DNA of 36,915 nucleotides from Rathayibacter sp. SD072 (GTDB lineage: Bacteria > Actinomycetota > Actinomycetes > Actinomycetales > Microbacteriaceae). The stretch lies in contig NZ_JADILJ010000039.1 in NCBI RefSeq assembly GCF_017355185.1, positions 1-36,915 of the forward strand, written 5' to 3'. Shown piece by piece: positions 1 to 25,469 of the stretch. Every line of letters starts with the position of its first letter. The first letter of the stretch is position 1. Position numbers and translations under genes: made by a program. The notes beneath the pieces were generated by a model that saw only the letters and a list, made by a program, of their open reading frames with translations, did not search any database and had not been told where the DNA came from.

Positions 1-64
1 GCACCAGGAGACGGACCGCGACGCTTCGAGACCGCCCCGGACGGCGGGCGATCGTGGCCGTCAT
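1..64 (-). CDS. Possible N-terminus of a protein running off the left edge
   Basis: On the minus strand an ATG at 64 opens a frame that stays open to the window edge (21 codons). It reads as a short basic stretch followed by the start of a hydrophobic run (about SVAVRLLV), which is how many bacterial sensor kinases and other membrane proteins begin. No ribosome-binding site stands out and the piece is too short to identify. It would be divergent from the DUF3500 gene. Confidence 0.25.
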   Translation of the reverse strand, partial: MTATIARRPGRSRSVAVRLLV

Positions 65-3991: not shown

Positions 3992-4906
3992 ATGTTGGAG
4001 CAGTACACCCACCTCGAACCGGACGCCAACCCCGACCGGCCCCGCCCGATGGATTGGCAAACGTATTCAGACACGGTGATGCAGGAGTGGTACGCACTCC
4101 TTCTAAGCGAGCCAGAAGAATCTGCGGTACAGACGTTCTTAGAACTTCACCCGGCGATGATCCCCGGAGGGAGCGGCGACGTCGGACCTGGCGGACATCA
4201 TGGATCCGATTTGGGCGCTGTTTTCACCCGCCCACGACTTAATGGTGCGGGACTTTCGTTCGAACCCGACTTCATGTGGGTCACGCGATCGTCTTCAACT
4301 ATCACCCCAATTCTTATCGAGATCGAAAAGCCCTCAAAACGATGGTTTAAGATGGATGGGCGACCGACTGCCGCCTTCACTGAAGCGCATGACCAACTGA
4401 ATGATTGGCGAACATGGTTTGCCAGAGATGGAAATGAAAGAATCTTTCGCGAGCAATATCAGCTCCTTGGAGACCATCCGAATCGGCCAGTGGAGCCACA
4501 ATACGTCCTAATCTATGGCCGTAGTAGCGAGTTTGATTTCGGAGGCGGACACACTAATCCCGATGACCTAAATCACAAACGGAATGGAATGCGAAAAGCA
4601 GACGAGACTTTTTTCACCTTTGACTCACTGAAACCGAAATTCGAGCACAGCGATTCCATCACCCTAAGGTCGCGCGCCAAAAGCCTAGAACCAGTCGCCT
4701 TCTCACCAGTTTTCACTACCGGGCCATGGATGTCGGACGGCTCGCGCCTCCTGGGCGACCCTACAGCAGCTCTCGTACGTACGCAGCACTTAACGCAAGA
4801 CCGACGTGATTACTTAGCAAAGCGAATTGCTCACTGGCAAAAAATTGACCGCGAAAGGGAATCAGGAAGAATCCGGGTTGGGATCCGGTCAGGCGGTCGA
4901 GAATAG
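3992..4906 (+). CDS. Shedu-like (DUF4263) anti-phage nuclease
   Basis: A 304-residue protein. In the N-terminal half FLELHPAMIPGG is the helix that opens DUF4263 nuclease domains. LSFEPDFMWV then supplies the acidic residue, and PILIEIEKPSKRWFKMDG followed by FTEAHDQLNDWRTWF supplies the E-x-EK and Q-x-DW signatures of this PD-(D/E)XK variant. Members of the family (SduA) are single-gene phage-defence nucleases. The protein is near the usual length for a compact member; the last ~35 residues are basic and helical. Base composition drops here relative to the neighbours (AAA, AAT and ATT codons are common), suggesting separate acquisition. The ATG at 3992 has no obvious ribosome-binding site. 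The DUF4238-like gene follows 21 bases later. Confidence 0.75.
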   Translation: MLEQYTHLEPDANPDRPRPMDWQTYSDTVMQEWYALLLSEPEESAVQTFLELHPAMIPGGSGDVGPGGHHGSDLGAVFTRPRLNGAGLSFEPDFMWVTRSSSTITPILIEIEKPSKRWFKMDGRPTAAFTEAHDQLNDWRTWFARDGNERIFREQYQLLGDHPNRPVEPQYVLIYGRSSEFDFGGGHTNPDDLNHKRNGMRKADETFFTFDSLKPKFEHSDSITLRSRAKSLEPVAFSPVFTTGPWMSDGSRLLGDPTAALVRTQHLTQDRRDYLAKRIAHWQKIDRERESGRIRVGIRSGGRE

Positions 4907-7759: not shown

Positions 7760-7874
7760 ATCGAAGAAGCGTTCGAAGGTGTGTTCGTTTCTGGGGCTCG
7801 ACGAGAGGCCTCCATTCGGCTACCGTCGTAGAGACGCCACGCGGCGTCGGCGTCATTTCGAGGAGTCAGGCCAC

Positions 7875-9023
7875 ATGGACACTGCACGATCAAGCTCGGC
7901 CGGCCGCTCCTCGGAGACCCCTACGCCCCTGTTCGGAACAGCTAGCGTCGGGTCTCTCGAGTCATGGGAAGCGAAGCTCGCGGCGCCGACGATCAAAGTA
8001 GTGAACGGCGATGCCCGAGATACGAAGTTGCCGGACAACTTCACTGACCTGATCGTGACGTCGCCTCCGTACTGGAACAAGCGCGACTACGGCCACGTCG
8101 ACCAAATCGGTCTCGAAGCCACACCGGAGGCGTACGTCTCCTCGATCATGGATTGCCTGGACGAGTGGAAGCGCGTCCTGCGCCCCAGCGGATCGATCTT
8201 CCTCAACGTCGGCGACACCTACTACCGCCGGTCCCTCGTCGGCATCCCGTCTCGCATCGAGGCGAAGGCCATCGACGCTGGCTGGGCCGTGCGCAACCGC
8301 ATCATCTGGGCCAAGGAAGGCGGAATGCCAGATCCCGCCCGCGATCGGCTGGCGAACCGCCACGAGTACATCATTCACCTCACCTACAAGCCCAACTACT
8401 ACTACGACCTCGTGGGGTATTCGGCCGAGATGGGAAACGGAGCCAACCCCGGCGACGTGTGGACGATCAACCCGGAGCGCAACATGGGCGCTCACCTCGC
8501 GCCGTACCCGCAGGAGCTTGTGCGTCGCGCCGTGCTCCTTGGTGCACCGAAGCAGGTCTGTGCGACCTGCGGGACTGCACGTCGCCGGGTGGTCGAGCGC
8601 ACTCGTGAACTTGACGCGTCCCGACCTCAGGCGAAGCGGGCGATGGAACTCGCAGATGCAGCCGGACTGACGGACGAGCACATCCGGGCGATCCAGGCGA
8701 CTGGGGTGTCCGATGTGGGGAAGGCGACGAAGTTCCAGACGGGCACCGGCCGCAACACGCTCGAAGTGCAGCGGCTCGCGAGCGAGGCGAAGCAGGTGCT
8801 CGGCGGTTACTTCCGCGAGTTCACGTTCTCGAAGAAGAAGACAACCGGGTGGACCGACTGCGGTCACGGCACTCCGGGTCGTGGTGTCGTCCTGGACCCG
8901 TTCATGGGAACAGGAACGACGTTGAAGACCGCTGCCGCCATGGGCCGTGACGCCGTGGGCGTGGACCTGGTGCCCCTGATGGATGCGCCCGAGTCCCCCA
9001 CGTGGGTTGGGCCTACGAGGTAA
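7875..9023 (+). CDS. Site-specific DNA methyltransferase (beta-class, N4C/N6A type)
   Basis: A 382-residue protein. The catalytic TSPPYW (residues ~62-67) precedes the AdoMet-binding DPFMGTGTT (~350), the beta-class order; SPPYW is typical of N4-cytosine and some N6-adenine enzymes. Between them a target-recognition insert carries CATC...C and a later DCGH, a possible zinc site. GAGGAG at 7860-7865 supports the ATG at 7875 over the in-frame 7779. The stop overlaps the McrC-like gene's stop by 11 bases in convergent orientation. It probably protects self DNA from the McrBC-like complex encoded opposite. The C-terminus (PLMDAPESPTWVGPTR) is a normal family end. Confidence 0.85.
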   Translation: MDTARSSSAGRSSETPTPLFGTASVGSLESWEAKLAAPTIKVVNGDARDTKLPDNFTDLIVTSPPYWNKRDYGHVDQIGLEATPEAYVSSIMDCLDEWKRVLRPSGSIFLNVGDTYYRRSLVGIPSRIEAKAIDAGWAVRNRIIWAKEGGMPDPARDRLANRHEYIIHLTYKPNYYYDLVGYSAEMGNGANPGDVWTINPERNMGAHLAPYPQELVRRAVLLGAPKQVCATCGTARRRVVERTRELDASRPQAKRAMELADAAGLTDEHIRAIQATGVSDVGKATKFQTGTGRNTLEVQRLASEAKQVLGGYFREFTFSKKKTTGWTDCGHGTPGRGVVLDPFMGTGTTLKTAAAMGRDAVGVDLVPLMDAPESPTWVGPTR

Positions 9024-10380
9024 TGCCGAGAATCGCTCCGACCTGACGAGCGAAGTGCTGATCTTCTGCGTCGAGGTCAGCTGCGGCGAGGTCGTATCGG
9101 TAGTCGAAGACGGACACTGCTCCGACATCGCCGATGAGGTGAAGTCCGCCGGCATGCTTGTCGGTTTTCGGGTGCACGAGGAGAACGTTGGTCGTCCCGT
9201 ATCGCGTGGCGTAGGTCACTGCTTGGTTAACCTCGGAGCGCTCGGGCAGCGTGCCCTTCATGAGGGTGTTTTTCAGCTCCGCGACCAGAGGGATGGTTCC
9301 GTCGTCTCGCTGAAACACGATGTCGGGCGTGGCGTTGGGTGACGTTTCCGTCTTGACGAGGGCCACATGGTTCACTCCGTCGAGCACACGGGGGATGTCC
9401 GGGCTCTGATAGAGCGGGATCTTCCCGTCTTTGTTCCCGTCGAGAATGCTGACAGGCCAGCTGCGATCCGTGGCGACACGGTGGAGCGTGGTGCGGACGT
9501 ACGCTTCGAAGAGGTCGCCCATATTGAGAAGCATCGAGGGCAGTTTCACGTCACCTGTGCCCTCGTCGAGCGAAATTCCGCGATCGGTCAGGACGGCGAC
9601 GGCGAGGCGAAGCGGTTCGCGGTAGTAGGTCCGCGACGCGGGAGGTTCGGCAAGCCCAGCCACGACTGGATCCTCTAAGTACCTTTGCTGAGGATCAATC
9701 TCGACGTCCGTGAAAGCGCGCAGCAGGCTCGCCAGTAGGCGGACGCGACGCTGGCTGTCTGCTATACCGCGTCGGGGGCCGACGTACCGTCTGTGCAGCT
9801 TCGAGAGCGCTGCTTTCAGGCATCGGTTGTAGGCGTTGTCTGTGGTGCGTTCGAACCACGAGAACTCCGCTTTGGTGGTGATCCCGCGGGCAGCGAAGTG
9901 GCGGACAGTGTTGGCAATGTCGAGATGGCCATGGGGGCGGGACCCGCTGTCCGTCTTGCGGATGTAGGTCCGATAGAGGCCTCGGTTGCGGATTTCGTCA
10001 CAGTGGCGGATGAGGGAATCGGCGTAAATGTCGAGCACCCAGTCCGAGACGGTCGAGGCTGTCGTGTAGGTGCGGAGCGCATCGAGGGCGAAGGCTTCGT
10101 AGCCGCTGCGTTGCACCATCCGCGTGAGGTTGGACATCGGTGTGCGCGGTGTGATGCGCAGGACGATCTGGTCGTTGATCGGCACGATTCCGACGATCCC
10201 GCCGGCTTGCAGTCTGAGTTCAGATCCTTTGAAATCGACCGTGAAGGCATTGAGTTTGGCGACGGATTCATAGATATCGAGCTTGCCGTCGGGTGTCATT
10301 ATTTCGTCGCGCTGTACCGGGATGAAGCCGTACTCGCGACACTCCCGCATGCGCGGAGCGGCGGAGGTTCCAGGTGTCAC
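9013..10380 (-). CDS. McrC-like restriction nuclease subunit
   Basis: A 455-residue protein of the McrC/LlaJI.R2 type. The N-terminal half carries the domain that contacts the AAA+ partner (GIVGIVPINDQIVLRITPRT at ~65-85). The C-terminal PD-(D/E)XK nuclease is visible as TPDIVFQRDDG, then VAELKNTL (E-x-K) and the helix QAVTYATRYGTTNVLLVHP. It starts with a GTG at 10380 that overlaps the McrB-like stop (GTGA), so the two are made in a fixed ratio. McrC activates GTP hydrolysis by McrB and cuts DNA. The convergent 11-base overlap with the methyltransferase may cause transcriptional interference between restriction and modification. Confidence 0.85.
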   Translation of the reverse strand: MTPGTSAAPRMRECREYGFIPVQRDEIMTPDGKLDIYESVAKLNAFTVDFKGSELRLQAGGIVGIVPINDQIVLRITPRTPMSNLTRMVQRSGYEAFALDALRTYTTASTVSDWVLDIYADSLIRHCDEIRNRGLYRTYIRKTDSGSRPHGHLDIANTVRHFAARGITTKAEFSWFERTTDNAYNRCLKAALSKLHRRYVGPRRGIADSQRRVRLLASLLRAFTDVEIDPQQRYLEDPVVAGLAEPPASRTYYREPLRLAVAVLTDRGISLDEGTGDVKLPSMLLNMGDLFEAYVRTTLHRVATDRSWPVSILDGNKDGKIPLYQSPDIPRVLDGVNHVALVKTETSPNATPDIVFQRDDGTIPLVAELKNTLMKGTLPERSEVNQAVTYATRYGTTNVLLVHPKTDKHAGGLHLIGDVGAVSVFDYRYDLAAADLDAEDQHFARQVGAILGITS

Positions 10381-11357
10381 GCGGCGTCGTCTGGCCCGGC
10401 AGGGTCATCGGCCTGCTGCGGACCGCTTTCGTTCACCTGGACGCCGGCGAAGATGGTTTCCCACCTGGATTCAACCTGACGGCGCGTCTCGGGGTCGAGG
10501 CGGAAGGCACGATCCACAGCGAACTGGAGTTGGTACTCCCACACGTCGCGGAGTGCCGCCGGCCCGTCGACGTTGATGAAGTACGCGTGACCGATTGCCG
10601 CCGCTGGGTTGTCTCGCGACATCCCGTTGACCAGGTGGAACCATCCCAGAACCTTGCTCCTCAGAGGGTCGGTGACACCTCCGAGATCGAGGATCTCTTC
10701 GAGGGCGGCGCGGTCCGGGTCGATCTTGATCTTCGCGAATCGGCGCTCGAACGCGGCATCGACCTCGTCGACACCCCTGTCGATGGGGTTCATGGTGGCG
10801 AGGATTTCGAGGTTCTCGGGCACGCGCAACGATTCGCCGGAGGCGAGCGCGACTTCGAGGCCGCGCTTGCTGCGTTCGACGTAGGTGAGCGCTTCACCGA
10901 ATACCCGAGCTGCATCGGCGCGGCTCAACTCGTCGATGACCAGCACGTAAGTGTGCTCCGGGTCTTTAGTTGCGGCTTCGCAGATTCTCTTGAAGATGCC
11001 CGGCTTCCGGTCAAAACCGCCCCCGGGAGCCGGCACGAAGCCTTCCATGAAGTCGTCGTACTGGTAGGACGCGTGGAACTGAACGAACCGCACTCGGGCC
11101 TTGTCGCCGGCTAGCGCCTCAGCAATCTGTGAGGCGTAGAAGGTCTTCCCGGTTCCGGGAGGTCCGGTGAAGATGACGCCACCGAAGGTAAGAAGCAGGC
11201 GTCGGACGAGAGCGAGCTTCGGGTGATCTGCTGCCATCCGAGGCGCGTCGGGTGCGTTCGACGCGTGCGTCGCCTGGAGCGTCGCGTCGACGCCGATGCC
11301 GAGGTCATCAGCTGTGAGGAGGCGCACTCGGGGTACGAGTTGAACGACAGCAGCCAT
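10377..11357 (-). CDS. McrB-like AAA+ GTPase restriction subunit
   Basis: A 326-residue protein. Walker A is GPPGTGKT (~residue 80) and Walker B is YVLVIDELSRAD (~165). The McrB-specific loop (usually MNTADRS) appears as ATMNPIDRGVDEVDAAFERRF (~225). The ATG at 11357 overlaps the previous stop by one base (TGATG) and is preferred to the longer frame at 11393. Only ~65 residues precede the AAA+ core, so the N-terminal DNA-binding domain of classical McrB is missing. Recognition is therefore likely supplied by the upstream gene product. It would form hexamers that translocate DNA using GTP. Confidence 0.85.
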   Translation of the reverse strand: MAAVVQLVPRVRLLTADDLGIGVDATLQATHASNAPDAPRMAADHPKLALVRRLLLTFGGVIFTGPPGTGKTFYASQIAEALAGDKARVRFVQFHASYQYDDFMEGFVPAPGGGFDRKPGIFKRICEAATKDPEHTYVLVIDELSRADAARVFGEALTYVERSKRGLEVALASGESLRVPENLEILATMNPIDRGVDEVDAAFERRFAKIKIDPDRAALEEILDLGGVTDPLRSKVLGWFHLVNGMSRDNPAAAIGHAYFINVDGPAALRDVWEYQLQFAVDRAFRLDPETRRQVESRWETIFAGVQVNESGPQQADDPAGPDDAA

Positions 11358-12148
11358 CACTCCACCTGCTCTTCGAGGAGAGGTTCGAACCACTGGAAGT
11401 CGGCTGAGGGTGCGGACGAATCGAACAAGCTCTCGAACTCCTCGTCGTCGCCGAACTGGAAACGTCTGCGGAAGGCGGTCACGGCGTCACCTGGTTCAGG
11501 AAGGGGATCGCCCATTCCGGGGCCTCCGTTGCCTCGGCGCCAGCCGTCGTCCACTTCGATCGGCAGCGGGAGTCTCGTGATGAATCCCGGTCCGACTCGG
11601 CGACGATTCGGGTCTTCGACGGGGTTGAAGGATCGCACCCCAGGGGATTCCGGGGTCGGCTGGTACGAATCGCCTGGCGAGTCCGTTTCGGAGATGCGGA
11701 ACCCGAAGTTGCGGAACAGGTACACGCTCAGTGGTACCACCGGGGCGCGGTGGCCGTAGAGAAGGGCATCTAGCGCTCGAACGGCATGATCCTCCGGCAG
11801 GACGTAGGTGTCCCCATCTACGAGAAAACCTGCGGTCCTACGGATCGAGCTGGGAGCGAAGCTCCCCGCCAAGTTGTCGTTGAACCAGTACACGGACCCG
11901 TCACTGTCTCTATTCCAGAGAGGACGGTAGTTCGGCTTTTTTGGCGGTCCGCCGGGAATTTCGAGGAGGGGACGCAGCTCAGACCATTGCGGATCGAACG
12001 GCCCGTCGCGCCTCCAGCGACGGTGGACCTGCAAGTAGGCAAGGAAGTGGGGATGGATCTTGCGCTTGCCCAGTGTCGCGATCGCCCATTTGACGGCGTC
12101 GACCGTGAGCACGAACGTCGGGCTGCCGGCTGCATCTACCATCGACAT
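11357..12148 (-). CDS. Third subunit of the McrBC-like restriction operon (unknown fold)
   Basis: A 263-residue protein and first gene of the operon. I do not recognise its family. The N-terminal ~55 residues are helical and basic (VKWAIATLGKRKIHPHFLAY). The middle is aromatic-rich (LWNRDSDGSVYWFNDNLAG) with LVDGDTYVLPEDHAVRAL; the C-terminus is acidic. Its stop is fused to the McrB start (TGATG). The order unknown-McrB-McrC, beside a methyltransferase, matches Bacillus subtilis BsuMI (ydiR-ydiS-ydjA), so it may be the DNA-recognition subunit replacing the missing McrB N-terminal domain. That assignment rests on synteny, not on sequence similarity I can check. Start could be ATG 12148 or two codons in. 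Confidence 0.6.
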   Translation of the reverse strand: MSMVDAAGSPTFVLTVDAVKWAIATLGKRKIHPHFLAYLQVHRRWRRDGPFDPQWSELRPLLEIPGGPPKKPNYRPLWNRDSDGSVYWFNDNLAGSFAPSSIRRTAGFLVDGDTYVLPEDHAVRALDALLYGHRAPVVPLSVYLFRNFGFRISETDSPGDSYQPTPESPGVRSFNPVEDPNRRRVGPGFITRLPLPIEVDDGWRRGNGGPGMGDPLPEPGDAVTAFRRRFQFGDDEEFESLFDSSAPSADFQWFEPLLEEQVE

Positions 12149-14945: not shown

Positions 14946-15884
14946 TCAGGCGTCCTCGTCCTCGGCGTCGGCCTCGTCGCCGTCGAGGATTTCCGCGATG
15001 CGGTGCGCGGTCGTCAGCACCCGCGCGGCGGTCCCTCGGATCACGTCCGCGTCGCAGTTGCTCCACCCCGCGATGTAGCCGACGCTGTACGCGCTCGTAT
15101 CGAACCCCACGAGCCCAGCGACGACGAACGCGACCCCCTCGGCCTCGGTCTCCATCAACCCGCGGTGCTGCGCGTACTCCTCCAGGTCGTCCACGTGACC
15201 CAAGAGAATGTGCGCCGTCTCGTGGATCAGGGTCTTGGCGGCCTGCTCCGGCGCGAGGGTGTCGCCGACGACGACGGTGCGGTCCTCGGGGCGGGCATAG
15301 CCGCTCGTTCCCTGAGGGAGGGTGCGCCGCTCGACGGTCCAGTCCTCGGCCTCGAGAAACGCGCTCAGCGCCGCGATAACGCCGTGATCCTCGGTGCCAG
15401 TCAGCGGCCGGGCGATGTCGCGGGGGTCCTCGGCGCCTTCCATGAGGTCGGTCTGTTCGATCGCGAATACCGACACGAGCGGGTAGTAGGTCTGGACCTT
15501 CTGCCCCTTCTCGTCGGCGCTCGTCGTGGCGCCCTCCTCGGGCTCCTCGTCGGCGTCGATCTTCCGCTGAGCGAAGCCAAAGATCTTGATCGCCTTCTCG
15601 CCCTTCCGCACCTGACGGCCCTTGCCCTGCCACGCGCGGAACCCGGCGACCGCGGACGCGTCGGGACGCTGCGCGAGGATCAGGAGGAGGTTGCCGAGGC
15701 TGTAGCGGTGGAACGAGGACGCGAACGAGAGGAACCGGCGCCAATGGTCGGAGTCGCGCAGCGCCTCGACCTGCTCGGTGATGCTCTCGTGCAGCGCGGC
15801 GGCCTGCTCGCGGCGCTCCTCCGGGGTAGTCCGCGGGGTGCGCTTCTTGGTGGCGGTCTTGCGGGTGGTGGTCGTGCGGGTCAT
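14946..15884 (-). CDS. ArdC-like anti-restriction protein with zincin protease domain
   Basis: A 312-residue protein. The N-terminal ~130 residues match the ArdC-type single-strand DNA-binding domain (RYSLGNLLLILAQRPDAS, then GFRAWQGKGRQVRKGEKAI). The C-terminal half is an ImmA/IrrE-like metallopeptidase with the zinc motif HETAH in LIHETAHILLGH (~residue 210) and a helix with ETEAEGVAFVV carrying the third ligand Glu. ArdC of IncW plasmids protects incoming single-stranded DNA from host restriction. AGGGAGAA upstream of the ATG supports this start. The gene is divergent from structured-RNA copy A. Confidence 0.8.
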   Translation of the reverse strand: MTRTTTTRKTATKKRTPRTTPEERREQAAALHESITEQVEALRDSDHWRRFLSFASSFHRYSLGNLLLILAQRPDASAVAGFRAWQGKGRQVRKGEKAIKIFGFAQRKIDADEEPEEGATTSADEKGQKVQTYYPLVSVFAIEQTDLMEGAEDPRDIARPLTGTEDHGVIAALSAFLEAEDWTVERRTLPQGTSGYARPEDRTVVVGDTLAPEQAAKTLIHETAHILLGHVDDLEEYAQHRGLMETEAEGVAFVVAGLVGFDTSAYSVGYIAGWSNCDADVIRGTAARVLTTAHRIAEILDGDEADAEDEDA

Positions 15885-15953
15885 GGCGGTTCTCCCTGTG
15901 CGAGGATCAACGCGACGGGTCCCGTGGTTCTAAGCCAACTACGGGGCTTTCGT

Positions 15954-16256
15954 CTTGTCTGATCGTTTTTTTGTGCCTCTCCGGCGGGAAGAACCGCTTG
16001 AGTGGAGGCGGCGGAGTGACGCCTGTTCCGAACGAAATAAGGGAGCTTGCGACCGCGTTCGGAACAGGTGGCACGGAGCCGCCGGAGCGAAATAGGTTTG
16101 TACCGCGGAGAGGAACAAAAAACCGCGGGGCAGCGCCGCGCAGCGGCTCCCAGTCGCCGCAGGCGATGCGCGCAAAGCGCGCCCCGCCCCGCGGGCGGAG
16201 AACCGGGGAGGGTGAGGGGTCGGCCCCTCACGGGACGGCAACGCCGGCCCTCCCCC
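15954..16256 (+). ncRNA. Structured repeat element, copy A: candidate noncoding RNA
   Basis: A ~300-base element repeated at 18298-18593. Plus-strand folding: closing helix 15965-15983 with 16106-16123 (CCTCTCCG/CGGAGAGG plus a T-run/A-run extension); GGCGGC 16007-16012 with GCCGCC 16078-16083; a 19-position helix 16016-16034 with 16056-16074; hairpin CCGC-TTGA-GTGG (15994-16005). A 3' domain follows with hairpins at 16134-16146, 16155-16167, 16168-16182 (GCGCGC-AAA-GCGCGC) and 16212-16231 (GTGAGGGG-TCGG-CCCCTCAC). Compared with copy B, several helices keep pairing by double substitution, and G-U wobbles occur on the plus strand only. Any frames through it are short and arginine/glycine-rich shadows. 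It is divergent from the ardC-like gene and convergent with the SSB gene. Family not recognised. Confidence 0.8.
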
Positions 16257-16282
16257 ACAGAATCCGCGCCCGAGCCAGCAGA

Positions 16283-16307
16283 TACAGGTACCTGTAGAGC
16301 TGTAGAG
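16283..16307. promoter_or_regulatory. 14-bp palindrome and tandem octamers after RNA copy A
   Basis: TACAGGTACCTGTA (16283-16296) is a perfect palindrome, overlapping a tandem duplication of CTGTAGAG (16292-16299 and 16300-16307). It lies in the otherwise gene-free 16257-16510, between the RNA element and the SSB stop. It could be an operator or a recombination/plasmid control site. Nothing else was found in this gap. Confidence 0.4.
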
Positions 16308-16510
16308 CCGCTGTCGATACCGAACGGGACGATGGAGACATGTGGGAGCTGGCACACCGGACGCGCGCGGAATCGGCATCGACGGTGGTGCACAGCAACG
16401 CGGCGACCAGCGCTGACGCATTGCAAAAGTGCGCGCGGCGATCCTGGAAGGTCACGTCATTTTGTACGTGCTCAGGGTCGAGGCCAGCTCGAAGTAGGGG
16501 CTTCTCTCGT

Positions 16511-17230
16511 CTACTCGGCCGCGGGGGCGGCGCTGCGGCGCGGGGTGCGCTGCGCGGCCGTCGTGACGACGGCCGTCGCGCGGGTGAGGCTCGGGCCGAT
16601 GGCATCGGCTTCGATGACGCGGCCGTAACGCTTCTTCTCGCCCTCACCCCAGGAGACGGTGTGCTCGTAGCCGACGACGATCACGGCGTCGCCCTTGTGG
16701 AGGGAGGCGAGCACGTGCTCGCCGAGCTCGAACTTCGCTTCCACGAAGTGCGTCGTCGGCGCCTCATGCGCGGTCCACTCTCCGCCGCGGAACTCGCCGG
16801 TGTTCTCGATCACGCGCAGCTTCACGATCTGCACGCGGCCCGCCTGCACGGCCTCGGGGTCGGTGGCGAGGTTCCCGGTGATCGTCCTGGTGCTCATTTG
16901 GCGTCTCCTGCTCGTGCGGTTCGTGGGTCGTCCCGTCGACGTCGACGGGGAGGCGTTCGGGGTGTCCTGCTCTGGTGCTTCCGTCTCGATACCCCAGGAC
17001 GCTAGTGCGGCGGCTCGGGTGACCGTGTCGGGCGGCTCGGACAGCGCCCTGCGCTGTTCGAGCTCGGCGCGCGTCACGGCATAGGCCGGGAGACGCCGCT
17101 CGTCGCCGTACGCGATCCGGTAGTACCGATCGGCCTCGTTCTCCAACCAGTCGACCTCGCCCTGCCGATCGGCCTGTCCGGCGAGGTACCCGGCCCGGTA
17201 GTCGTCGCTCGAGGCGTCCGGGCCGGTCAC
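16511..17230 (-). CDS. ssb: SSB-domain protein with a ~111-residue N-terminal extension (internal SSB start)
   Basis: One uninterrupted 239-codon frame. It begins with a GTG at 17230 overlapping the nrdH stop (GTGA). Residues 1-111 are a separate domain (DDYRAGYLAGQADRQGEVDW...) followed by a Ser/Thr/Arg-rich linker. Residue 112 is Met (ATG 16897) and starts a single-strand DNA-binding OB-fold: STRTITGNLATDPEAVQAG, VQIVKLRVIENTGEF, and a short tail. There is no stop between the parts, and AGGAGA lies ahead of the internal ATG. Either a fusion protein or two products (239 and 128 residues) are made. The acidic DDDIPF-type tail of housekeeping SSB is absent. It likely coats transferred or replicating plasmid DNA. 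Confidence 0.75.
   Translation of the reverse strand: MTGPDASSDDYRAGYLAGQADRQGEVDWLENEADRYYRIAYGDERRLPAYAVTRAELEQRRALSEPPDTVTRAAALASWGIETEAPEQDTPNASPSTSTGRPTNRTSRRRQMSTRTITGNLATDPEAVQAGRVQIVKLRVIENTGEFRGGEWTAHEAPTTHFVEAKFELGEHVLASLHKGDAVIVVGYEHTVSWGEGEKKRYGRVIEADAIGPSLTRATAVVTTAAQRTPRRSAAPAAE
16898..16909 (-). promoter_or_regulatory. Internal ribosome-binding site deciding the short SSB start
   Basis: On the minus strand AGGAGA (16909-16904) sits six bases before the ATG at 16897, inside the coding frame of the longer protein. The spacing is ideal, so a stand-alone 128-residue SSB (16511-16897) is probably made as well as, or instead of, the long form. Confidence 0.6.
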
Positions 17231-17457
17231 GCTGCGTGCTTCTCGATGAGGTCGGGGCGGAAGCCCGACCAGTGGTCCTCGTCGCTCGCGACGACCACCG
17301 GGGCGGCGGAGTAGCCCAGCTCCTCCGTGATGTATGCGAGAGCGGCGGGATTGGTTGTGATATCAACGGTGGTGTATTCGATGCCCTTCTTCTCGAGCAC
17401 CCGATAAGTCATGGTGCACTGAACGCACGAGGGCTTGGAATAGACGGTCAAAGCCAT
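17227..17457 (-). CDS. nrdH: NrdH-type glutaredoxin-like protein
   Basis: A 76-residue protein, the usual NrdH length. The redox motif CVQC is at residues 11-14 and the cis-proline region is SAAPVVVASDEDHWSGFRPD, typical of NrdH. It reduces class Ib ribonucleotide reductase with thioredoxin reductase. AGGAGG ahead of ATG 17457 settles the start; the longer frame is shadow. No nrdI, nrdE or nrdF is present, so it must serve the host enzyme, probably boosting dNTP supply during transfer or replication. It lies third in a four-gene operon and its stop overlaps the SSB-protein start. Confidence 0.9.
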   Translation of the reverse strand: MALTVYSKPSCVQCTMTYRVLEKKGIEYTTVDITTNPAALAYITEELGYSAAPVVVASDEDHWSGFRPDLIEKHAA

Positions 17458-17756
17458 GACGACTCCTCCTGATAGAACTCCATGTGCGCTTCGAGTTCTT
17501 CGACGTTTTTCTCGTCGTAGTGTGCGTCGATCCACCATCCTGCCGCATCGCGCTCCCCCGCCTTGGTGAGCATCTGTGCGATCACGTTGACCTTCTCGCA
17601 GGAGAGCGTGGGCGAGACGGTCGTCGCCACGGAGATGTTCGCGAGGGCCGCCGTGTAGGAAGCGCCTGCGGCGAGGAACGCCGTCACCGCCTCGTCGTAG
17701 TCCGCCTCGGCGGCGAGGTAGTTCGTCACGGCGTCGGCCTTCTGCTGCTCGGTCAT
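17448..17756 (-). CDS. Small acidic hypothetical protein upstream of nrdH
   Basis: A 102-residue, mostly helical acidic protein (TEQQKADAVTNYLAAEADYD ... VEELEAHMEFYQEESSWL). It starts at ATG 17756 inside the end of the previous gene (4-base overlap) and overlaps nrdH by 10 bases, so all four genes are coupled. It contains one Cys and no catalytic motif. Function unknown; a plasmid housekeeping role is likely from context. Confidence 0.6.
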   Translation of the reverse strand: MTEQQKADAVTNYLAAEADYDEAVTAFLAAGASYTAALANISVATTVSPTLSCEKVNVIAQMLTKAGERDAAGWWIDAHYDEKNVEELEAHMEFYQEESSWL

Positions 17757-18238
17757 CGGTCCGATCCTCCCGGGGTGTGGTGAGCGTCGCCCTCGTCGTC
17801 GTCGTCGGTGGCGTGCTCCGCAATCCACAGGTCCGCGGCCTCTCCCCTGCCTGCGGCTCGCAGGAGTCCGGCGAGGGCGTCGACCTCACCACAGTTCAGC
17901 CGCGCTGCGACATCCCCGGCAAGGTCCCAACTCGCAAATGTGTCCAGGAACGCCGCCAGAGTCTCCTCAACGCTCGGCGCCGGTGCGGCGGGCTCCGCTC
18001 CCCCAGCTTCAACAGCGGGCGTGAGAAGGGCGATCAGCGCTTGCGCGAACGGGGACCCGTCCTGCTCGATCGCCAGCGCTCCGGGCGCGGCCGTCCCGGG
18101 CAGGCAGAGCGTGTTGCGGGCGTCCTGGAGGATTTCGGCGTCGGTGGCGGTGTCGTAGTGCGCGCTGGCCGCGCGCTGCGTGGTGCAGATGAGCGCGAGC
18201 TGCTCAGGGGTGGCCTGGCCTGTGGGCGTGTTCGACAT
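17753..18238 (-). CDS. Hypothetical protein, first gene of the nrdH/ssb operon
   Basis: A 161-residue protein, helical and acidic in its second half (ALIALLTPAVEAGG, then SVEETLAAFLDTFASWDLAG and LNCGEVDALAGLLRAAG). The last part resembles the following gene's C-terminal region in layout (both end with a domain carrying 'A..AD.WI..H'), hinting at a shared small fold. GGAGAAGCGGG precedes the ATG at 18238. RNA copy B begins 60 bases away on the other strand, divergently. No family recognised. Confidence 0.6.
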   Translation of the reverse strand: MSNTPTGQATPEQLALICTTQRAASAHYDTATDAEILQDARNTLCLPGTAAPGALAIEQDGSPFAQALIALLTPAVEAGGAEPAAPAPSVEETLAAFLDTFASWDLAGDVAARLNCGEVDALAGLLRAAGRGEAADLWIAEHATDDDDEGDAHHTPGGSDR

Positions 18239-18297
18239 GATTCCCGCTTCTCCGGAACGACACCGGGCCTCTCACCTAATGGTGGCCTGGCTTATCC

Positions 18298-18593
18298 CTT
18301 GTCTGATCGTTTTTTTGTGCCTCTCCGGCGGGAAGAACCGTTTGAGCGGAGGCGGCGCAGTGACGCGCATTCCGGGCGGAATAAGGGAGCATCGCGACCG
18401 CGTTCGGAATGCGTGGCACGGAGCCGCCGGAGCGAAATAGGTTTGTACCGCGGAGAGGAACAAAAAACCGTGGGACAGTGCCGCGCAGCGGCTCCTTGTC
18501 GCCGCAGGCGATGTGCGCCAAGCGCACCCCCGCTTGGGCGGGAAGACTGGGGAGCGCGAGGGGATGCCCCTCGCGGCCGGCCCAGAGTCGGCC
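18298..18593 (+). ncRNA. Structured repeat element, copy B: candidate noncoding RNA
   Basis: The second copy of the element at 15954, same strand, ~2344 bases downstream. The main helix (18360-18378 with 18401-18419) retains pairing although three base pairs differ from copy A (C-G to G-C, U-A to C-G, G-C to A-U) and two A-U pairs became G-U. Other covarying hairpins: CCGT-TTGA-GCGG (18338-18349), GTGCGC-CAA-GCGCAC (18513-18527), CGCGAGGGG-ATG-CCCCTCGCG (18555-18575). The closing helix and AATAGGTTTGTACCGCGGAG are unchanged. A final hairpin (GGCCG/CGGCC, 18575-18593) followed by ATTTCC may terminate it. It is divergent from the nrdH operon and convergent with the recombinase paralogue. Confidence 0.8.
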
Positions 18594-18639
18594 ATTTCCG
18601 CCTCATTCGACGGGCTTTCTCGGTTGTTCGGGCCGTAGG

Positions 18640-19536
18640 TCAGTTGCGGCGGAGGTCGTCGTTGTCGGCGAGAAGCGTGGCTGTCTGCAGGAGCAGAGCG
18701 GCCAACCTTGCGTCGACGTCGTCGTAGGCGTTTGCGACGTCCTGCAGGGTTCGTCGAGTGGACGGTTCGAGCCGCGCGCGCGGGTGGTTATCGACCGGTG
18801 CTTGTCCGGTTCGTTGCCGGTCCGCAGTGATGGCCGACATCGCGCGGGTGGTGAGTGGTCCGTGCGGGTTGAGCCATCCGTGTTGATCGATCGCCGGGAG
18901 CAGGACCGGTGCGACTCGCCAGTCGTCGGCCACGTCGGTGTCGCAGTCGTGCGTATCGGTGAAGAGGGTCGGGTCGAGGATTTCGCGGACGGTGTACCGG
19001 AACCCCAGCGCTGCTGGCCCGAGGACGCGCAGCCAGCGGGTGACTACGCACCGCCAACACGACACGGCCTCCGCCGACTTCTGGACAGGGACGCCTGCGA
19101 CTGTGATGTCAGCGCCGGTGACGATGTCCGCCTCGGTGATCGTTCGCGCATGCCCTCGGGTGAGGTGGAGCTGATCGAGCAGGAGCAGCAGGAACGCGTC
19201 GCGGCGGCCGACTAGGCCTACCGGGTAGCGGGTCAGAGGCAGGGCTGCGACTGCTTCGGCCGGGGTGATCCATCTTGCGCCGGCGCGGATCGGTCGTGCG
19301 AGTTCCGTAGGCGGGACAGGGAATGCTGCGTGGAGGAGCTCGTGGGCGGCGCGAAGGGCGCGCACTCGCCCGACGGCCGTGGACGGGGCCGCGGGAACCG
19401 CGGCGAAGAACCGCCCCAACTGAACGATCGACGCCGGCGCGGGACTCGCACCGACTGCGTCGCACCAGTCCGTGTACAGCTGCCAATGCGCCCGACTGGA
19501 CACCGGCAACTGCTCGAGGACGTGGTCGGGGGTCAT
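18640..19536 (-). CDS. Catalytically degenerate tyrosine-recombinase paralogue
   Basis: A 298-residue protein coupled to the recombinase by an ATGA overlap at 19533-19536. It parallels that protein block by block: a SAM-like N-terminal domain (HWQLYTDWCDAVGASPAP against a similar block), an internal Cys pair and helix (SCWRCVVTRWLRVLG against TCAACAWVRWLRILA), then APVLLPAIDQHGW against APLLRRMHKTGLP. It stops before the HxxR and Tyr box, so the nucleophile is missing. It could be a directionality or architectural partner that binds the same sites, or a decaying copy; intact length and coupling argue for a function. Confidence 0.6.
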   Translation of the reverse strand: MTPDHVLEQLPVSSRAHWQLYTDWCDAVGASPAPASIVQLGRFFAAVPAAPSTAVGRVRALRAAHELLHAAFPVPPTELARPIRAGARWITPAEAVAALPLTRYPVGLVGRRDAFLLLLLDQLHLTRGHARTITEADIVTGADITVAGVPVQKSAEAVSCWRCVVTRWLRVLGPAALGFRYTVREILDPTLFTDTHDCDTDVADDWRVAPVLLPAIDQHGWLNPHGPLTTRAMSAITADRQRTGQAPVDNHPRARLEPSTRRTLQDVANAYDDVDARLAALLLQTATLLADNDDLRRN

Positions 19537-20657
19537 AGTCCGAGGTCGTTGACAGCGTTCCCGGTGAGCGGATCACGCTCGCGCGCGTAAATCTCCACTG
19601 TCGCCGGGGATCGGTGTCCGGTCTGCCGCATCACAGCATGCGTACTCGCCCCGTGCCGGAGCGCTTCGGTGACGAATCCGGCGCGGAGGGAGTGGGCGCT
19701 GTACTGCTCAGGGTCCAGGCCGACCGCGGTCACGCGGCGTTTGACGATGAGGTTTACCGACTGCGCCGACAACGCATTTACGGTCGGCAGACCGGTCTTG
19801 TGCATCCGCCGCAGCAACGGCGCCTCCCCCTCCAGAGTAGGGATGCTGGTTCGGCACACGTGCACTGCGGGGTCGTCGGTACACAGCACCCGCATCACCG
19901 CGCTGCGCCCCGTCGCGCCCGCGGCGAGAATCCGCAGCCACCGCACCCACGCGCACGCCGCGCATGTGAGTGGTTCCCGGCCGTAAGGAATCGCTTTGAC
20001 GAGGCCTTTCCCGGTCTGGTCGGTCTTGGAGCGGCGGATCCGCAGATGCAGCCCGTCCTCCTTGTGTCGGGTGACGTCGGAGATGCGCAGGTCGATGAGT
20101 TCAGTGCGGCGAAACGCGCCAGCCCAGCCGAGCAAGATCACCATGCGGTCTCGAACCCCGGTCGCTCCCGCAGGCCATGTCGTGACGTCGATGCGGTCCA
20201 GGACCGCCTGCACGTCCGTGAGAAGCAGGGGGTCCGCTCGACGCGGGGGTCGCAGCCGCTCCCGACGGATGCCCTGCAGAGTACGAGCTACCAGGGCGCT
20301 GTGGCCGGGAAGTGGGAGGTTCTGTTCCGCGTGCGCAGCGTTGATTGCGGACAACCAGCGGGCCATGGAGGCCGGGGCATACCGCCACTTCCCTGCGGTC
20401 GTGAGGATCCCGGCTCGGTCGGCGAGGTACTCCGCGACCGTCTCCGGTGATGCTGGCAGGTGCGGACGGCCGTTCGCGGCGCACCAGGACACGAACGCCC
20501 GCAGGTCCGACTCGTACGCCCGCCGCGTGTTCCCCGCGATCGACGCATCACTCAGCTCCGACACCGCCGCCGACACCGGCACCACGGCTCCAGCCGGCAC
20601 CTGCTCCGGTACTGAAGTCGCTACCGGTTCTTCGAGCATTTTCTGCGGAAGCGTCAT
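19533..20657 (-). CDS. Tyrosine recombinase (phage-integrase family)
   Basis: A 374-residue protein with all catalytic residues in order: Arg in AGAFRRTELIDLR, Lys in RRSKTDQTG, HSLRAGF (His-x-x-Arg), and TGHRSPATVEIYAR with His and the nucleophile Tyr near the end. The N-terminal core-binding domain is clear (NTRRAYESDLRAFVSWCAANG). An insertion contains CAAC, possibly a metal site. The ATG at 20657 overlaps the preceding stop (ATGA), so it is preferred over 20684. The probable role is plasmid dimer resolution or integration. No flanking attachment site is evident; it is the middle gene of a three-gene operon. Confidence 0.9.
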   Translation of the reverse strand: MTLPQKMLEEPVATSVPEQVPAGAVVPVSAAVSELSDASIAGNTRRAYESDLRAFVSWCAANGRPHLPASPETVAEYLADRAGILTTAGKWRYAPASMARWLSAINAAHAEQNLPLPGHSALVARTLQGIRRERLRPPRRADPLLLTDVQAVLDRIDVTTWPAGATGVRDRMVILLGWAGAFRRTELIDLRISDVTRHKEDGLHLRIRRSKTDQTGKGLVKAIPYGREPLTCAACAWVRWLRILAAGATGRSAVMRVLCTDDPAVHVCRTSIPTLEGEAPLLRRMHKTGLPTVNALSAQSVNLIVKRRVTAVGLDPEQYSAHSLRAGFVTEALRHGASTHAVMRQTGHRSPATVEIYARERDPLTGNAVNDLGL

Positions 20658-20986
20658 GACCGGGGCACCCCCCACACCAGGCACGCCCGACAGTTCACAT
20701 CTCGACGATCCGGCCCGCTGACCGGATCAGGGCAGGAACCGGTATCGGTATGCGGGAGGCGGCCGTCCGCGATCTGCTCGAGGACACGCACCCGCTCCAG
20801 CAACTCCGGCACACTCGAACGCAGAACCCTCGTCGCCTGCAAAAGGACACGCCAATTCGGTTCACCGTCCCCGTCAAACCATTCAGCAGACCGGACCTCG
20901 TCTATCTCGGCCGCAAGCGCGTCGACGTCCGGCGGAAAGGCCAGGATGCCCTCGAACGGGCCCTCCAACTGATCCGACACCGACAC
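20654..20986 (-). CDS. Small protein with a C-terminal cysteine cluster, upstream of the recombinase
   Basis: A 110-residue protein. The GTG at 20986, with GGGAGAGG 6-7 bases ahead, is the best start; the longer frame begins with a TTG. The N-terminal part is acidic and helical (DVDALAAEIDEVRSAEW, LERVRVLEQIADGR). The C-terminus has three cysteines in CPDPVSGP...VNCRACLVWG, a possible zinc knuckle. It overlaps the recombinase start by four bases. It may control or assist recombination; this is inferred from coupling only. Confidence 0.6.
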   Translation of the reverse strand: MSVSDQLEGPFEGILAFPPDVDALAAEIDEVRSAEWFDGDGEPNWRVLLQATRVLRSSVPELLERVRVLEQIADGRLPHTDTGSCPDPVSGPDRRDVNCRACLVWGVPRS

Positions 20987-22877: not shown

Positions 22878-23267
22878 TCAGGAGCCTCGTCGACCGTCTC
22901 GGGCTCGAGCGCCCCAGTACTCGCGAACCGCAATCTCGATCACCGACCGTTGCGTCAGTCCCTGCTCGTCTGAAGTTGCGTCGATGAGCTCAGAAATGTC
23001 CTGAGAGATTCGGGTAGAGAACGGAACGGTCAGCTCCCTCCCCCGTGGCCTACCTCGTCGAGACGGCGTAGGGGCGGGCGGCTCGAAGGACGGAGATGCC
23101 ACCACCGGAGGTCGATCCAGGTTCCGCACATCGCTTGTAGACGCGGCGGCATTCGAGGCACCAGGAGCGGGCTTGGTCTGGTAGTCGACAGGATCGATCG
23201 ATTCGTCAGGCGCTGGCGTCGGACGACGGCGCTGCAGTGACGCCGGCCGATCCTCGATCTCGCTCAT
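22878..23267 (-). CDS. RHH-type partition partner protein (ParB-like role)
   Basis: A 129-residue protein whose ATG (23267) overlaps the parA stop (ATGA). The first ~75 residues are disordered (Pro/Ala/Ser-rich) with a short basic segment (SRRGRPRGRE). The C-terminal ~45 residues (LTVPFSTRISQDISELIDATSDEQG LTQRSVIEIAVREYW) form a ribbon-helix-helix. Small RHH proteins take the centromere-binding role in type Ib par systems, where the N-terminal flexible tail activates the ParA ATPase. This one is longer than the usual ParG and fits that role. Confidence 0.7.
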   Translation of the reverse strand: MSEIEDRPASLQRRRPTPAPDESIDPVDYQTKPAPGASNAAASTSDVRNLDRPPVVASPSFEPPAPTPSRRGRPRGRELTVPFSTRISQDISELIDATSDEQGLTQRSVIEIAVREYWGARARDGRRGS

Positions 23268-24034
23268 CGGATCACCTTTTCCACGATTTCTGTGTACGCA
23301 GCAAGGACAGGGGCTCCCTTTCGATAGTTGCCGTACCATTCCCCAACCAATCGCACTTCTGGGACGATCGCGCGGTCCGGAACGAGCGGAGTGAGCAAGA
23401 GGCCTGTAGCCCGTAGCTCTTCGATGCTCGCTACTGCAGGTCGGCTCATGATCGTTTCTTTTACACCACCTACTACGATCCCGGCCTCGGTGATCGAAGC
23501 GGGAGCGCCGAGACGACGACGGTTGATGCGAAACTGCTCAATCGTTCTGCGAGCCCCCTCTACCCCGTCGACGCCGTCTCCGCTAGGTGTCGCCGCGTAG
23601 ACGACCGTATCTGCCGCGTTCAGCGCCGCAAGCGTTAGGGGTCCGCCTTGCCGATTAGGACAGTCGATGACGACAAGGTCCGCGTCTAGGCCCAGGAGGG
23701 ATACTTTCAACCTGATTTCAGCGTGATCGGCTCGGTCAGCTTCGCGATTAGAAACCGATCGGGCGGAAGGAATCACGCGCAAGTTATCGTTCCACGAGCT
23801 GCGGACAGCCAGGTCTTGAGCCCAACCCTCTGGATCAGAGTCTCCGAGGATTGCCCCCACGTGCAGGCCCTCCCCCGCCGGCGCAACATTGAGCCACTTC
23901 GTCGTCGCTGCGCGTGGATCGAGGTCGATGAGCAGAACCCGTTTCCCCTTCGTCGCGGCAACCATCGCCAGGGACACGGCCGTCGTGGTTTTGCTGACCC
24001 CGCCTGATTCGCTGTACACCATGACTACCTGCAT
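23264..24034 (-). CDS. parA: ParA-family partition ATPase
   Basis: A 256-residue protein without an N-terminal DNA-binding domain, as in type Ib systems. The deviant Walker A is ESGGVSKTTTA (signature Gly-Gly-x-x-Lys-Thr with a Ser in place of the second usual Gly), then VLLIDLDPRAATTKW, ADLVVIDCPN (Walker B) and a C-terminal helical part. ATG 24034 is chosen; two codon choices upstream add only MMDC. It drives plasmid copies apart on the nucleoid. The gene overlaps its RHH partner by 4 bases and is preceded by a palindrome-rich region, probably its operator and centromere. Confidence 0.88.
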   Translation of the reverse strand: MQVVMVYSESGGVSKTTTAVSLAMVAATKGKRVLLIDLDPRAATTKWLNVAPAGEGLHVGAILGDSDPEGWAQDLAVRSSWNDNLRVIPSARSVSNREADRADHAEIRLKVSLLGLDADLVVIDCPNRQGGPLTLAALNAADTVVYAATPSGDGVDGVEGARRTIEQFRINRRRLGAPASITEAGIVVGGVKETIMSRPAVASIEELRATGLLLTPLVPDRAIVPEVRLVGEWYGNYRKGAPVLAAYTEIVEKVIR

Positions 24035-24157
24035 GCAGTCCATCATACACGCATGTCGACCTTACGTACTTACATCCTGCGGTATTTCCTGCATGCATGA
24101 AATTACGCATGAATGACGTCAGGCTGTCTGGGCGACATGCATGTACGCACGGTGCGT
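24029..24157. promoter_or_regulatory. Candidate parS/operator region with repeated GCATGC palindromes
   Basis: Three GCATGC-type palindromes lie in order: CTGCATGCAG (24029-24038), TGCATGCATG (24090-24099), ACATGCATGT (24135-24144). ACGCATG occurs at 24049-24055 and 24105-24111, and ACGCACGGTGCGT (24145-24157) is an inverted repeat. The cluster sits at the parA start and upstream, where the RHH protein would bind for partition and autorepression. Confidence 0.55.
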
Positions 24158-24173
24158 CGGGAAGTGACCACTG

Positions 24174-25469
24174 CTAACGAGCGAACGCTGTCGCCAGCTC
24201 TGCCCAATGGGTGGTGGCGCGGGCGGATAAGGCGCCGCGTTTCATCGTCCACACCGGTCCCTTGCGGATTCCAGCGAGTCCGAGGCCGATCGCGGAGCGG
24301 CCGTGTCGCTTCGTCACGGCGTCGATCGTGGCGCCGAGGCCCTTGGTGTCGAACGCTGTGTCGAAGACGTCGAGGAACGCGTGGGAGCCCTTGGGGGAGA
24401 GGTTGGTGAGGATGACGCCAGCCCTGACGTAGCGGGCCCCGTCGCGCAACCGGGGCTGCAGCGTGCCGATCGCGGCCCTGACGATTGCCACCGGGTCGTC
24501 GGTGGGGATCGGGAAGCCGGCGAGGCCGCCGGCGGACTCGTACGGCGCATCCGCGAAGGGCGACGTCGAGGCGAACACGCTCATCGTCTTTGTCACCGAC
24601 TCCTGCGCTCGGAGGCGGTGGGCGGCGCGTTGCGCGTAGACGGAGAGCACCTGCTCCATGTCCGCGATCGTCGTTACAGGAGTGGCGAACGAGCGGGAGA
24701 AGATCAGCTGGTCACGGACCGTGCGGGCGGCCTCGAGGGGTATGCAGTCGATGCCGCGCAGCTCGTAGACGGAGCGCTGCAGGACGACGGAGAACTTCTT
24801 CCGAATGAGCGCGGGGTCGGCGTCGCGGAGGTCGCGGATTGTGTGGATGGACAGCTCCGCGAGGCGCTTCCCCGTGCGGCTGGCGACGCCCCACAGCTCG
24901 GTCACGTGCTGCGAGGCCATGAGGGCGTCGAGCTGCGCGGGTGTGTACCAGTCGGTGTCGCAGACGCCGCCAAGACGCGGGTGCTTTTTCGCGCCGCCCT
25001 TGTTGACGAACTTCGCGAGTGTCTTGCTCCGTCCGAAGCCGACGCAGACGGGCAGGCCGACGTTCTTGGCGACGGCCGCGCGCATCGCTCGGCCAATTTT
25101 GGCCCGCTCCGCCACGTCGCCGTCGACGCCGAGGAAGCTCTCGTCAATCGAATACACCTCCTGCCAGGCGGAGTAGCGGCCTAGCAGCTCCATCACGCGG
25201 GCGGACAGCTCGCCGTACAGCTCATAGTTGCTGGATCGGGCGATCACCTCCGGCAGACGGCCGGCTCGGATGAGGGGTTCGATCTTGAACCAGGGCGTGC
25301 CGTTCTCGATGCCAAGCTGCTTCACTTCGTCCGAGCGGGCGACTACGCAGCCGTCGTTGTTCGAGAGGACGACGACGGGCCGGCCCGCGAGCTTGGGGGC
25401 GAACAGTCGCTCGCAGGAGACGTAGAAGGAGTTGACGTCGACCAGGCCGATGCGCTGCTCAGAGCGCAC
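24174..25469 (-). CDS. umuC: Y-family DNA polymerase, UmuC-type
   Basis: A 431-residue protein. The N-terminus is the Y-family palm (GLVDVNSFYVSCERLFAPKL with the first catalytic Asp; EVYSIDESFLGVDG with SIDE). The UmuC-specific insert (VVLSNNDGCVVARSDEVKQL) separates it from DinB. A thumb and little-finger domain follow. GTG 25469 overlaps umuD by 11 bases. Together with UmuD' it performs error-prone lesion bypass, and plasmid-borne copies such as rumAB/mucAB raise host mutability. The C-terminus is complete (THWAELATAFAR). Confidence 0.93.
   Translation of the reverse strand: MRSEQRIGLVDVNSFYVSCERLFAPKLAGRPVVVLSNNDGCVVARSDEVKQLGIENGTPWFKIEPLIRAGRLPEVIARSSNYELYGELSARVMELLGRYSAWQEVYSIDESFLGVDGDVAERAKIGRAMRAAVAKNVGLPVCVGFGRSKTLAKFVNKGGAKKHPRLGGVCDTDWYTPAQLDALMASQHVTELWGVASRTGKRLAELSIHTIRDLRDADPALIRKKFSVVLQRSVYELRGIDCIPLEAARTVRDQLIFSRSFATPVTTIADMEQVLSVYAQRAAHRLRAQESVTKTMSVFASTSPFADAPYESAGGLAGFPIPTDDPVAIVRAAIGTLQPRLRDGARYVRAGVILTNLSPKGSHAFLDVFDTAFDTKGLGATIDAVTKRHGRSAIGLGLAGIRKGPVWTMKRGALSARATTHWAELATAFAR

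Follow-up and report, generated by a model that had tools for sequence, protein, structure and literature searches.

What role is played by two long, closely similar hairpin elements, A and B, that lie between genes in Rathayibacter sp. SD072? The stretch of DNA that holds them (contig NZ_JADILJ010000039.1, positions 1 to 36,915; "the window" below means all 36,915 nucleotides) was the subject of an earlier note, which described the pair as two copies of a new structured RNA. We find that the element is real and widespread, and that it is most likely folded DNA rather than RNA. Elements A and B are probably single-stranded DNA (ssDNA) promoters, similar to the Frpo and ssi elements of other plasmids, that provide early gene expression in the recipient cell. 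Their positions and parts are as follows.

15963..16127, plus strand: element A, given on the folded strand (the predicted transferred strand); full match to the class I covariance model R1 at 154.3 bits, for which it is a model sequence
18307..18472, plus strand: element B, the second copy, on the same strand as A; 148.6 bits with model R1, also a model sequence
16033..16057, plus strand: apical box of element A, CGAAATAAGGGAGC-loop-GCGACCGCG, the best conserved part across genera
18377..18402, plus strand: apical box of element B
16128..16256, plus strand: GC-rich hairpins that flank element A on its 3′ side and differ between copies A and B by compensatory changes
18473..18593, plus strand: GC-rich flanking hairpins 3′ of element B

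Both copies lie where the earlier note had placed them, as direct repeats with 87% (15945-16046 and 18289-18390) and 92% (16049-16185 and 18394-18530) identity over most of their length. The double substitutions that it had listed can be read in the two sequences, as can its TTGA-loop hairpin, the change GCGCGC/GTGCGC and the change GTGAGGGG/GCGAGGGG. When folded as ssDNA, copy A (z = -7.75) and copy B (z = -6.76) are each more stable than all 200 shuffled sequences, while the minus strand of copy A (z = -6.16) folds 6.4 kcal/mol more weakly than the plus strand. The whole window gives no Rfam match at the gathering score, in agreement with the note's view that no known family fits, and a tRNA search of the window found none. 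No gene is called over either element, though open reading frames (ORFs) do overlap both. Five more copies occur in the same genome, all on contig C48.

Relatives were found by blastn on plasmids of Rathayibacter, Arthrobacter, Mycetocola, Cryobacterium and Clavibacter. Within the family, blastn matches occur in 35 of 398 genomes, whereas the exact core is present in 1 of 396 genomes sampled evenly across the phylum (Rathayibacter sp. SD072 itself), so the elements have the patchy distribution of plasmid parts. The best conserved stretch of the element is the hairpin tip. A pattern of this tip matches at least 116 stretches of the genome collection, with actinobacterial names on 77 of 80 among the matches listed; the reversed pattern, used as a control, is absent among the matches listed in three of the pattern scans. 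At an E value of 0.01, 91, 25 and 40 plasmid records are matched by class II, class III and class I queries, respectively, many of them partially, and no phage record matches the element.

These classes, assigned by eye and by script, differ in architecture or host. Class I is a long hairpin that includes the window elements and is found in Microbacteriaceae and on one Arthrobacter plasmid; class II carries side hairpins that form a junction and occurs in Curtobacterium, Clavibacter, Leifsonia and others; class III occurs in the Arthrobacter group, and the remainder was left unclassified. The class I covariance model finds a match in each of 14 loci (L166-L179; E up to 0.04), of which L178 belongs to class I and the others to class II, class III or the unclassified group; a few of these matches are full-length (L172, L175). 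From 135 hits, 129 had enough flanking sequence, 121 remained after off-target removal by judgement (L092, L102, L111, L131, L163, L164 and L165) and 83 were left once near-identical ones had been removed. The last three of those removed are viral contig loci whose sequences led us to judge their core matches as chance. Some plasmids carry several copies, with five each in L011, L012 and L014. In Microbacterium sp. Leaf288 (L055), two hairpin tips lie in tandem 73 bases apart, as if the apical hairpin had been duplicated. On plasmids of Prescottella, Gordonia, Mycobacterium and Mycolicibacterium (H77-H87), blastn gives weak and incomplete matches to the arms of class III, which suggest, from sequence, that more distant relatives may exist.

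The covariation that was first read from two copies extends to further homologues. In the class I alignment (A2; 27 of the 28 class I elements, L068 being left out because of an N), 90.6% of cells pair, compared with 76.6% after shuffling and 37-48% for slid structures, and double changes occur at 29 of 53 pairs, with no shuffle in 500 as good. The class II alignment (A3; 29 of the 34 class II elements, leaving out L119, L146, L055, L078 and L079) pairs in 93.1% of cells, compared with 86.4% after shuffling, with double changes at 21 of 32 pairs. Both structures come from the very alignments on which they are scored, with G-U pairs allowed, which favours these values somewhat. A Watson-Crick-only RNAalifold consensus kept just 13 pairs for class I and 6 for class II, and we therefore used per-sequence folds together with A2 and A3.

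Which strand folds? In Watson-Crick-only folds of the 83 elements, single mismatches on the reported strand are G.T in 19 cases and A.C in 5, compared with 12 and 24 in 151 flanking stretches and 9 and 8 in shuffled elements. The earlier note's choice of the plus strand is thereby upheld. The reported strand also gives the more stable fold in 82 of the 83 elements, with the flanks leaning the same way (108 of 151). An excess of purine-purine mismatches was rejected as strand evidence, since composition explains it: composition-preserving shuffling gives almost the same ratio (271:28 against 286:19). The excess of G.T over A.C bears on the idea that the elements are leader RNAs of the minus-strand genes, that is, 5′ untranslated regions resembling riboswitches or antitermination sites. 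Such a role would suit their placement directly 5′ of genes and the several copies per plasmid, would account for the Cryobacterium contigs described below that carry copies on both strands, and has a parallel in the pLS20-type establishment genes, which, in the part of the source considered, have upstream inverted-repeat regions and a non-template transferred strand (PMC8708921). However, the mismatch ratio of 19:5 favours the plus strand, the commonest plus-strand G.T pairs (columns 75-102 and 81-99 of A2; 82-112 of A3) would become A.C in a minus-strand RNA, and the promoter hexamer score described below shows no gain on that strand within the elements. We consider a leader RNA very improbable.

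The elements are consistently placed with respect to genes. Among all 135 hits, off-target ones counted, 122 have as their closest gene to the left one that is encoded opposite to the folded strand, and so do 80 of the 83 non-redundant actinobacterial elements; 1 of the 83 has a same-strand gene and 2 have no called gene. A Shine-Dalgarno-like motif precedes 70 of the 80 downstream starts, compared with 588 of 1600 shuffled sequences. The quartiles of the distance from the hairpin tip to the left start codon are 106-163 for class I and 123-172 for class II, whereas those to the right-hand gene are 201-339 and 242-594. In a hand count of annotated plasmid stretches, a coding sequence starts within about 150 nt at 26 of 31 elements; the five misses are L173, L174 and L175 (class III), L177, and the L009 copy at 9234, where a LysR gene intervenes. 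Many of the first genes are uncharacterised, and those that can be recognised first or next in line (ardC, nrdH-ssb, parB, DUF3846 and DUF3560) are of leading-region types. A Mycetocola plasmid has five elements, each located 5′ of one of nrdH, a DUF3846 gene, dprA, ardC and parB. The genes that follow the two elements of the window are:

14946..15884, minus strand: ArdC-like anti-restriction gene (PF08401, E 1.5e-13), directly downstream of element A, with GGGAG before its ATG
17753..18238, minus strand: uncharacterised first gene downstream of element B
17227..17892, minus strand: ORF with a glutaredoxin (NrdH-like) domain at residues 149-205, in the minus-strand run after element B
16511..17230, minus strand: ORF in the same run with an SSB domain at residues 114-211 (E 1.8e-5; 25.2 bits, just below the Pfam cut-off of 26)

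As far as the sections considered describe them, SSB and anti-restriction are among the functions encoded in leading regions (PMC11541004), and the ArdC of R388 is required in the recipient and not in the donor (PMC7213743).

Promoter-like boxes are enriched in the 3′ arm of the folded strand. This arm contains a TTGnnn-15..20-nAnnnT pair in 49 of 83 elements, whereas its complementary strand has one in 22 of 83; for the 5′ arm the counts are 13 and 9 of 83, and for shuffled sequences 220 of 1660. A hexamer score of at least 8 is reached in 35 of 83 on the folded strand of the 3′ arm, compared with 12, 9 and 10 of 83 in the other three settings and 215 of 1660 shuffles. By class, the TTG/-10 pair is present in 29 of 34 class II, 5 of 6 class III and 8 of 15 other elements. 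In class I, the T-12, A-11 and T-7 positions (TAnnnT) are invariant in all 27 aligned sequences. The corresponding features in the window are:

16093..16098, plus strand: predicted -10 of element A (TAGGTT), on the 3′ arm
18438..18443, plus strand: predicted -10 of element B (TAGGTT), on the 3′ arm
15985, minus strand: predicted transcription start of element A, on the 5′ arm; it pairs with 16105, which lies 7 nt beyond the -10, with a pair probability of 0.97

This start would give element A a leader of about 100 nt, up to the ATG at 15884. Predicted start pairs fall at a similar place of the 5′ arm in most class I and class III members, and more loosely in class II. During promoter melting, A-11 is the base that sigma flips out. 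In the folded elements, A-11 has an unpaired probability of 0.79, compared with 0.50 for the other As of the arm, and is higher in 59 of 70 (p 2e-9); it is the most unpaired base of the -10 hexamer in each class. This analysis covers 70 of the 83 elements, and outside class I the -10 was picked as nAnnnT after TTG, so that its A and T were preset. A stricter search for sigma-70-like promoters in 15600-19000 found none (0.1 expected), and next to element A the minus strand has 2 terminator-like sites where 1.9 are expected. In L034, L049, L061 and L159, of Clavibacter/Frigoribacterium type, a second GGGAGC/GCGACC-like mini-hairpin lies shortly past the place of the -10.

As part of a duplex, the boxes face away from the gene, and only fold-back of the strand directs them at it. 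We compared the folded strand with the strand of the relaxase gene. The two are opposite on 47 of the 49 replicons or contigs that carry both, which are not independent, yet cover both relaxase families and many genera. In the first set all 25 are opposite, namely 16 plasmids (nine TrwC-type and seven Relaxase-type) and nine contigs of the genus Rathayibacter (G000:C48, G116:C1, G383:C2, G358:C2, G358:C3, G045:C5, G171:C7, G301:C7 and G331:C1). The second set, drawn from a pattern scan as the first 50 genomes on a list of 64 loci, adds 24 new contigs with both features, 22 opposite and 2 on the same strand (G791:C5 repeats G045:C5 and is counted once). The first-set search found no relaxase in plasmids W08, W09 and W19 or in 2 of the 29 genomes searched; W08 and W09 are nevertheless typed as relaxase-bearing by MOB-suite. 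With the relaxase gene in the part that enters last, this relation would make the folded strand the transferred strand. The contig that is the closest relative found to the window, G116:C1, has the same order of elements and genes and a relaxase gene on the expected strand. In 13 of 16 plasmids, 6-29 kb separate the relaxase from the nearest element along the presumed transferred strand. Among 32 contigs with at least two exact cores (12 and 20 in two scans), the copies share one strand in 25 and lie on both strands in 7.

The strand relations also bear on two further explanations. On the earlier note's reading the elements are a plus-strand RNA, which a rightward promoter would make as a structured non-coding transcript. 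The conserved covarying structure that it described stands, and its RNA identity is not supported: the elements lie 5′ of opposite-strand genes, have promoter boxes in their 3′ arm and fold on the strand opposite the relaxase gene. Although the boxes would point right in duplex DNA and the wobble pairs suit the plus strand, a promoter in the 3′ half should give an RNA without the long hairpin, and such an RNA would be mostly antisense, because the gene that follows on the right is encoded on the minus strand for 90 of the 135 hits and on the plus strand for 25, with no gene called for the other 20. A plus-strand RNA would also leave the relaxase relation and the narrow spacing to the left gene unexplained, and we think there is little chance that it is the product. 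Elements that are multicopy, intergenic and inverted-repeat in form could also be mobile repeats or duplex operators, protein sites unrelated to single strands. The strand asymmetry, the covariation over 53 pairs and the orientation to gene and relaxase speak so clearly against this that we give it almost no credence.

From the structure, the covariation, the strand, the boxes, the gene positions and the relaxase relation established above, we infer the identity of the transferred strand (from the relaxase strand), the start site, recognition by polymerase, the timing and the switch-off in duplex DNA. The plasmid would enter the recipient as single-stranded DNA, corresponding to the plus strand of the window, and each element would fold into its long hairpin. 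The 3′ arm would supply the non-template -10, and in other classes also the -35, while the 5′ arm would serve as the template. Host RNA polymerase would then run from the loop side past the base of the stem and leftward onto the single strand, so that element A would drive ardC, and element B the run with nrdH and ssb, ahead of second-strand synthesis. Once the plasmid is duplex, the promoter would presumably be switched off.

Several observations weigh against such ssDNA promoters. The transferred strand is read from the strand of the relaxase gene, which is a proxy for the origin of transfer; element and relaxase share a strand in G828:C4 and G801:C6, and none was found when a relaxase was sought on the window contig. 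Distances of 34, 45 and 92 kb from relaxase to nearest element in W04, W05 and W18 fit early entry badly. The seven two-strand contigs are all from Cryobacterium and share one layout, with opposed copies about 9.2 kb apart (G794:C98, G794:C101, G795:C16, G818:C37, G827:C3, G820:C25 and G814:C10); both copies cannot sit on one transferred strand, and no relaxase was found on these seven contigs. In class I, the class of the window, no -35 is recognised. The complementary strand of the 3′ arm also carries the box pair twice as often as shuffled sequences do (22 of 83), though this excess is absent by hexamer score. The box scan recovered no good boxes in the known Frpo hairpins of F, and so is not a validated detector. 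Finally, class III elements mostly lack a close downstream gene.

This last point favours the strongest competitor, in which the hairpin is only a single-strand initiation site where primase or RNA polymerase makes the primer for the second strand, and its proximity to genes is incidental. Class III loci L062, L109, L110, L112, L123 and L138 have the best boxes (such as TTGACG-19-TACGAT), mostly with no close gene, and perhaps represent priming sites or produce an unannotated early transcript. The choice of strand and the hairpin fit a priming site equally well, and a 1997 paper by Masai and Arai reportedly names both transcription and primer synthesis in its title, which we count in its favour. 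Against priming alone stand the several copies per plasmid, most of which are near a start codon (26 of 31 elements by annotation), and the correctly oriented gene that lies downstream of 80 of 83 elements. We regard priming alone as unlikely, though the least so of the four alternatives, and favour promoters that act on the incoming strand.

How do these promoters relate to known systems? As described in the sections of PMC9849209 and PMC11541004 considered, Frpo1 and Frpo2 of F and the ssi/Frpo-like promoters of ColIb-P9 and others are likewise non-coding hairpins of the transferred strand present in more than one copy, located upstream of ssb and other leading genes, with promoter boxes formed by fold-back and the transferred strand as template. 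We computed that in F, too, the transferred strand gives the more stable fold, and the ssb, psiB, traM, traJ and traY genes of F lie on the plus strand, the same gene and strand layout as for our elements. In contrast, the conserved apical box, the unpaired A-11 and the branched form of class II have no counterpart seen in F, the hosts here are Actinomycetota, and class I model R1 has no match in the F leading region (L180). The elements most likely work like Frpo, without detected kinship to it.

Two Gram-positive systems are also comparable. The EGeRS1 and EGeRS2 regions of the pLS20 family, in the part of PMC8708921 considered, are repeated regions that precede ardC-like establishment genes on conjugative plasmids of Gram-positive bacteria, and EGeRS1 holds inverted repeats. 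They are set apart by strand, not by sequence comparison, as the transferred strand of pLS20 is the non-template strand (PMC8708921), whereas here it is the predicted template (47 of 49). The sso of ICEBs1 is a site that acts on the ssDNA of a Gram-positive conjugative element, but is described as a single-strand origin of replication; this likeness is drawn from its description and not from sequence. In the sections considered, tested ssDNA promoters in print come from enterobacterial plasmids, and those elsewhere are predicted candidates. The open-access literature covered (such as PMC11541004, PMC9849209, PMC12826799, PMC8708921, PMC12614216, PMC11730352 and PMC7213743, in the parts considered) describes none in Actinomycetota, subscription papers and preprints lying outside the search, and the string "actino" is absent from the main text of PMC11541004 and PMC12826799. 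Promoters of this type have been described on E. coli plasmids, and the elements of Actinomycetota look like a separate set.

Other genes of the window include defence-type genes at 3992-4906 (plus), 7779-9023 (plus) and 9013-11393 (minus), with a Shedu SduA C-terminal domain, an N6/N4 DNA methyltransferase, and a McrBC component beside an AAA ATPase. A tyrosine integrase (Phage_integrase) gene lies to the right of element B at 19533-20684 (minus). Further along are genes for a Y-family (UmuC-like) DNA polymerase (24174-25469, minus) and a ParA-like ATPase (23264-24046, minus); umu-like genes flank leading-region islands in the part of PMC11541004 considered.

A broader proposal, which we advance tentatively and hold to be somewhat less likely true than false, is that Actinomycetota evolved their own ssDNA promoters independently of enterobacterial Frpo. 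In such promoters the -10 would be pre-melted, its A-11 being unpaired, and would be combined with an invariant apical box that may form a tandem G.A mini-hairpin. A specific host or plasmid factor would read this box as folded ssDNA and recruit RNA polymerase, so that the establishment operons switch on together in the recipient. The invariance of the box makes this recognition factor a directly testable question, and the set would offer a natural variant series for asking what RNA polymerase needs when it starts on folded ssDNA. Promoters of this kind account for the expression of anti-restriction and SSB genes while a plasmid is still single-stranded. A covarying set in Actinomycetota that can be defined by sequence would make it possible to locate the leading region of their plasmids, to tell which strand is transferred and to pick out unknown early genes, all from sequence alone.

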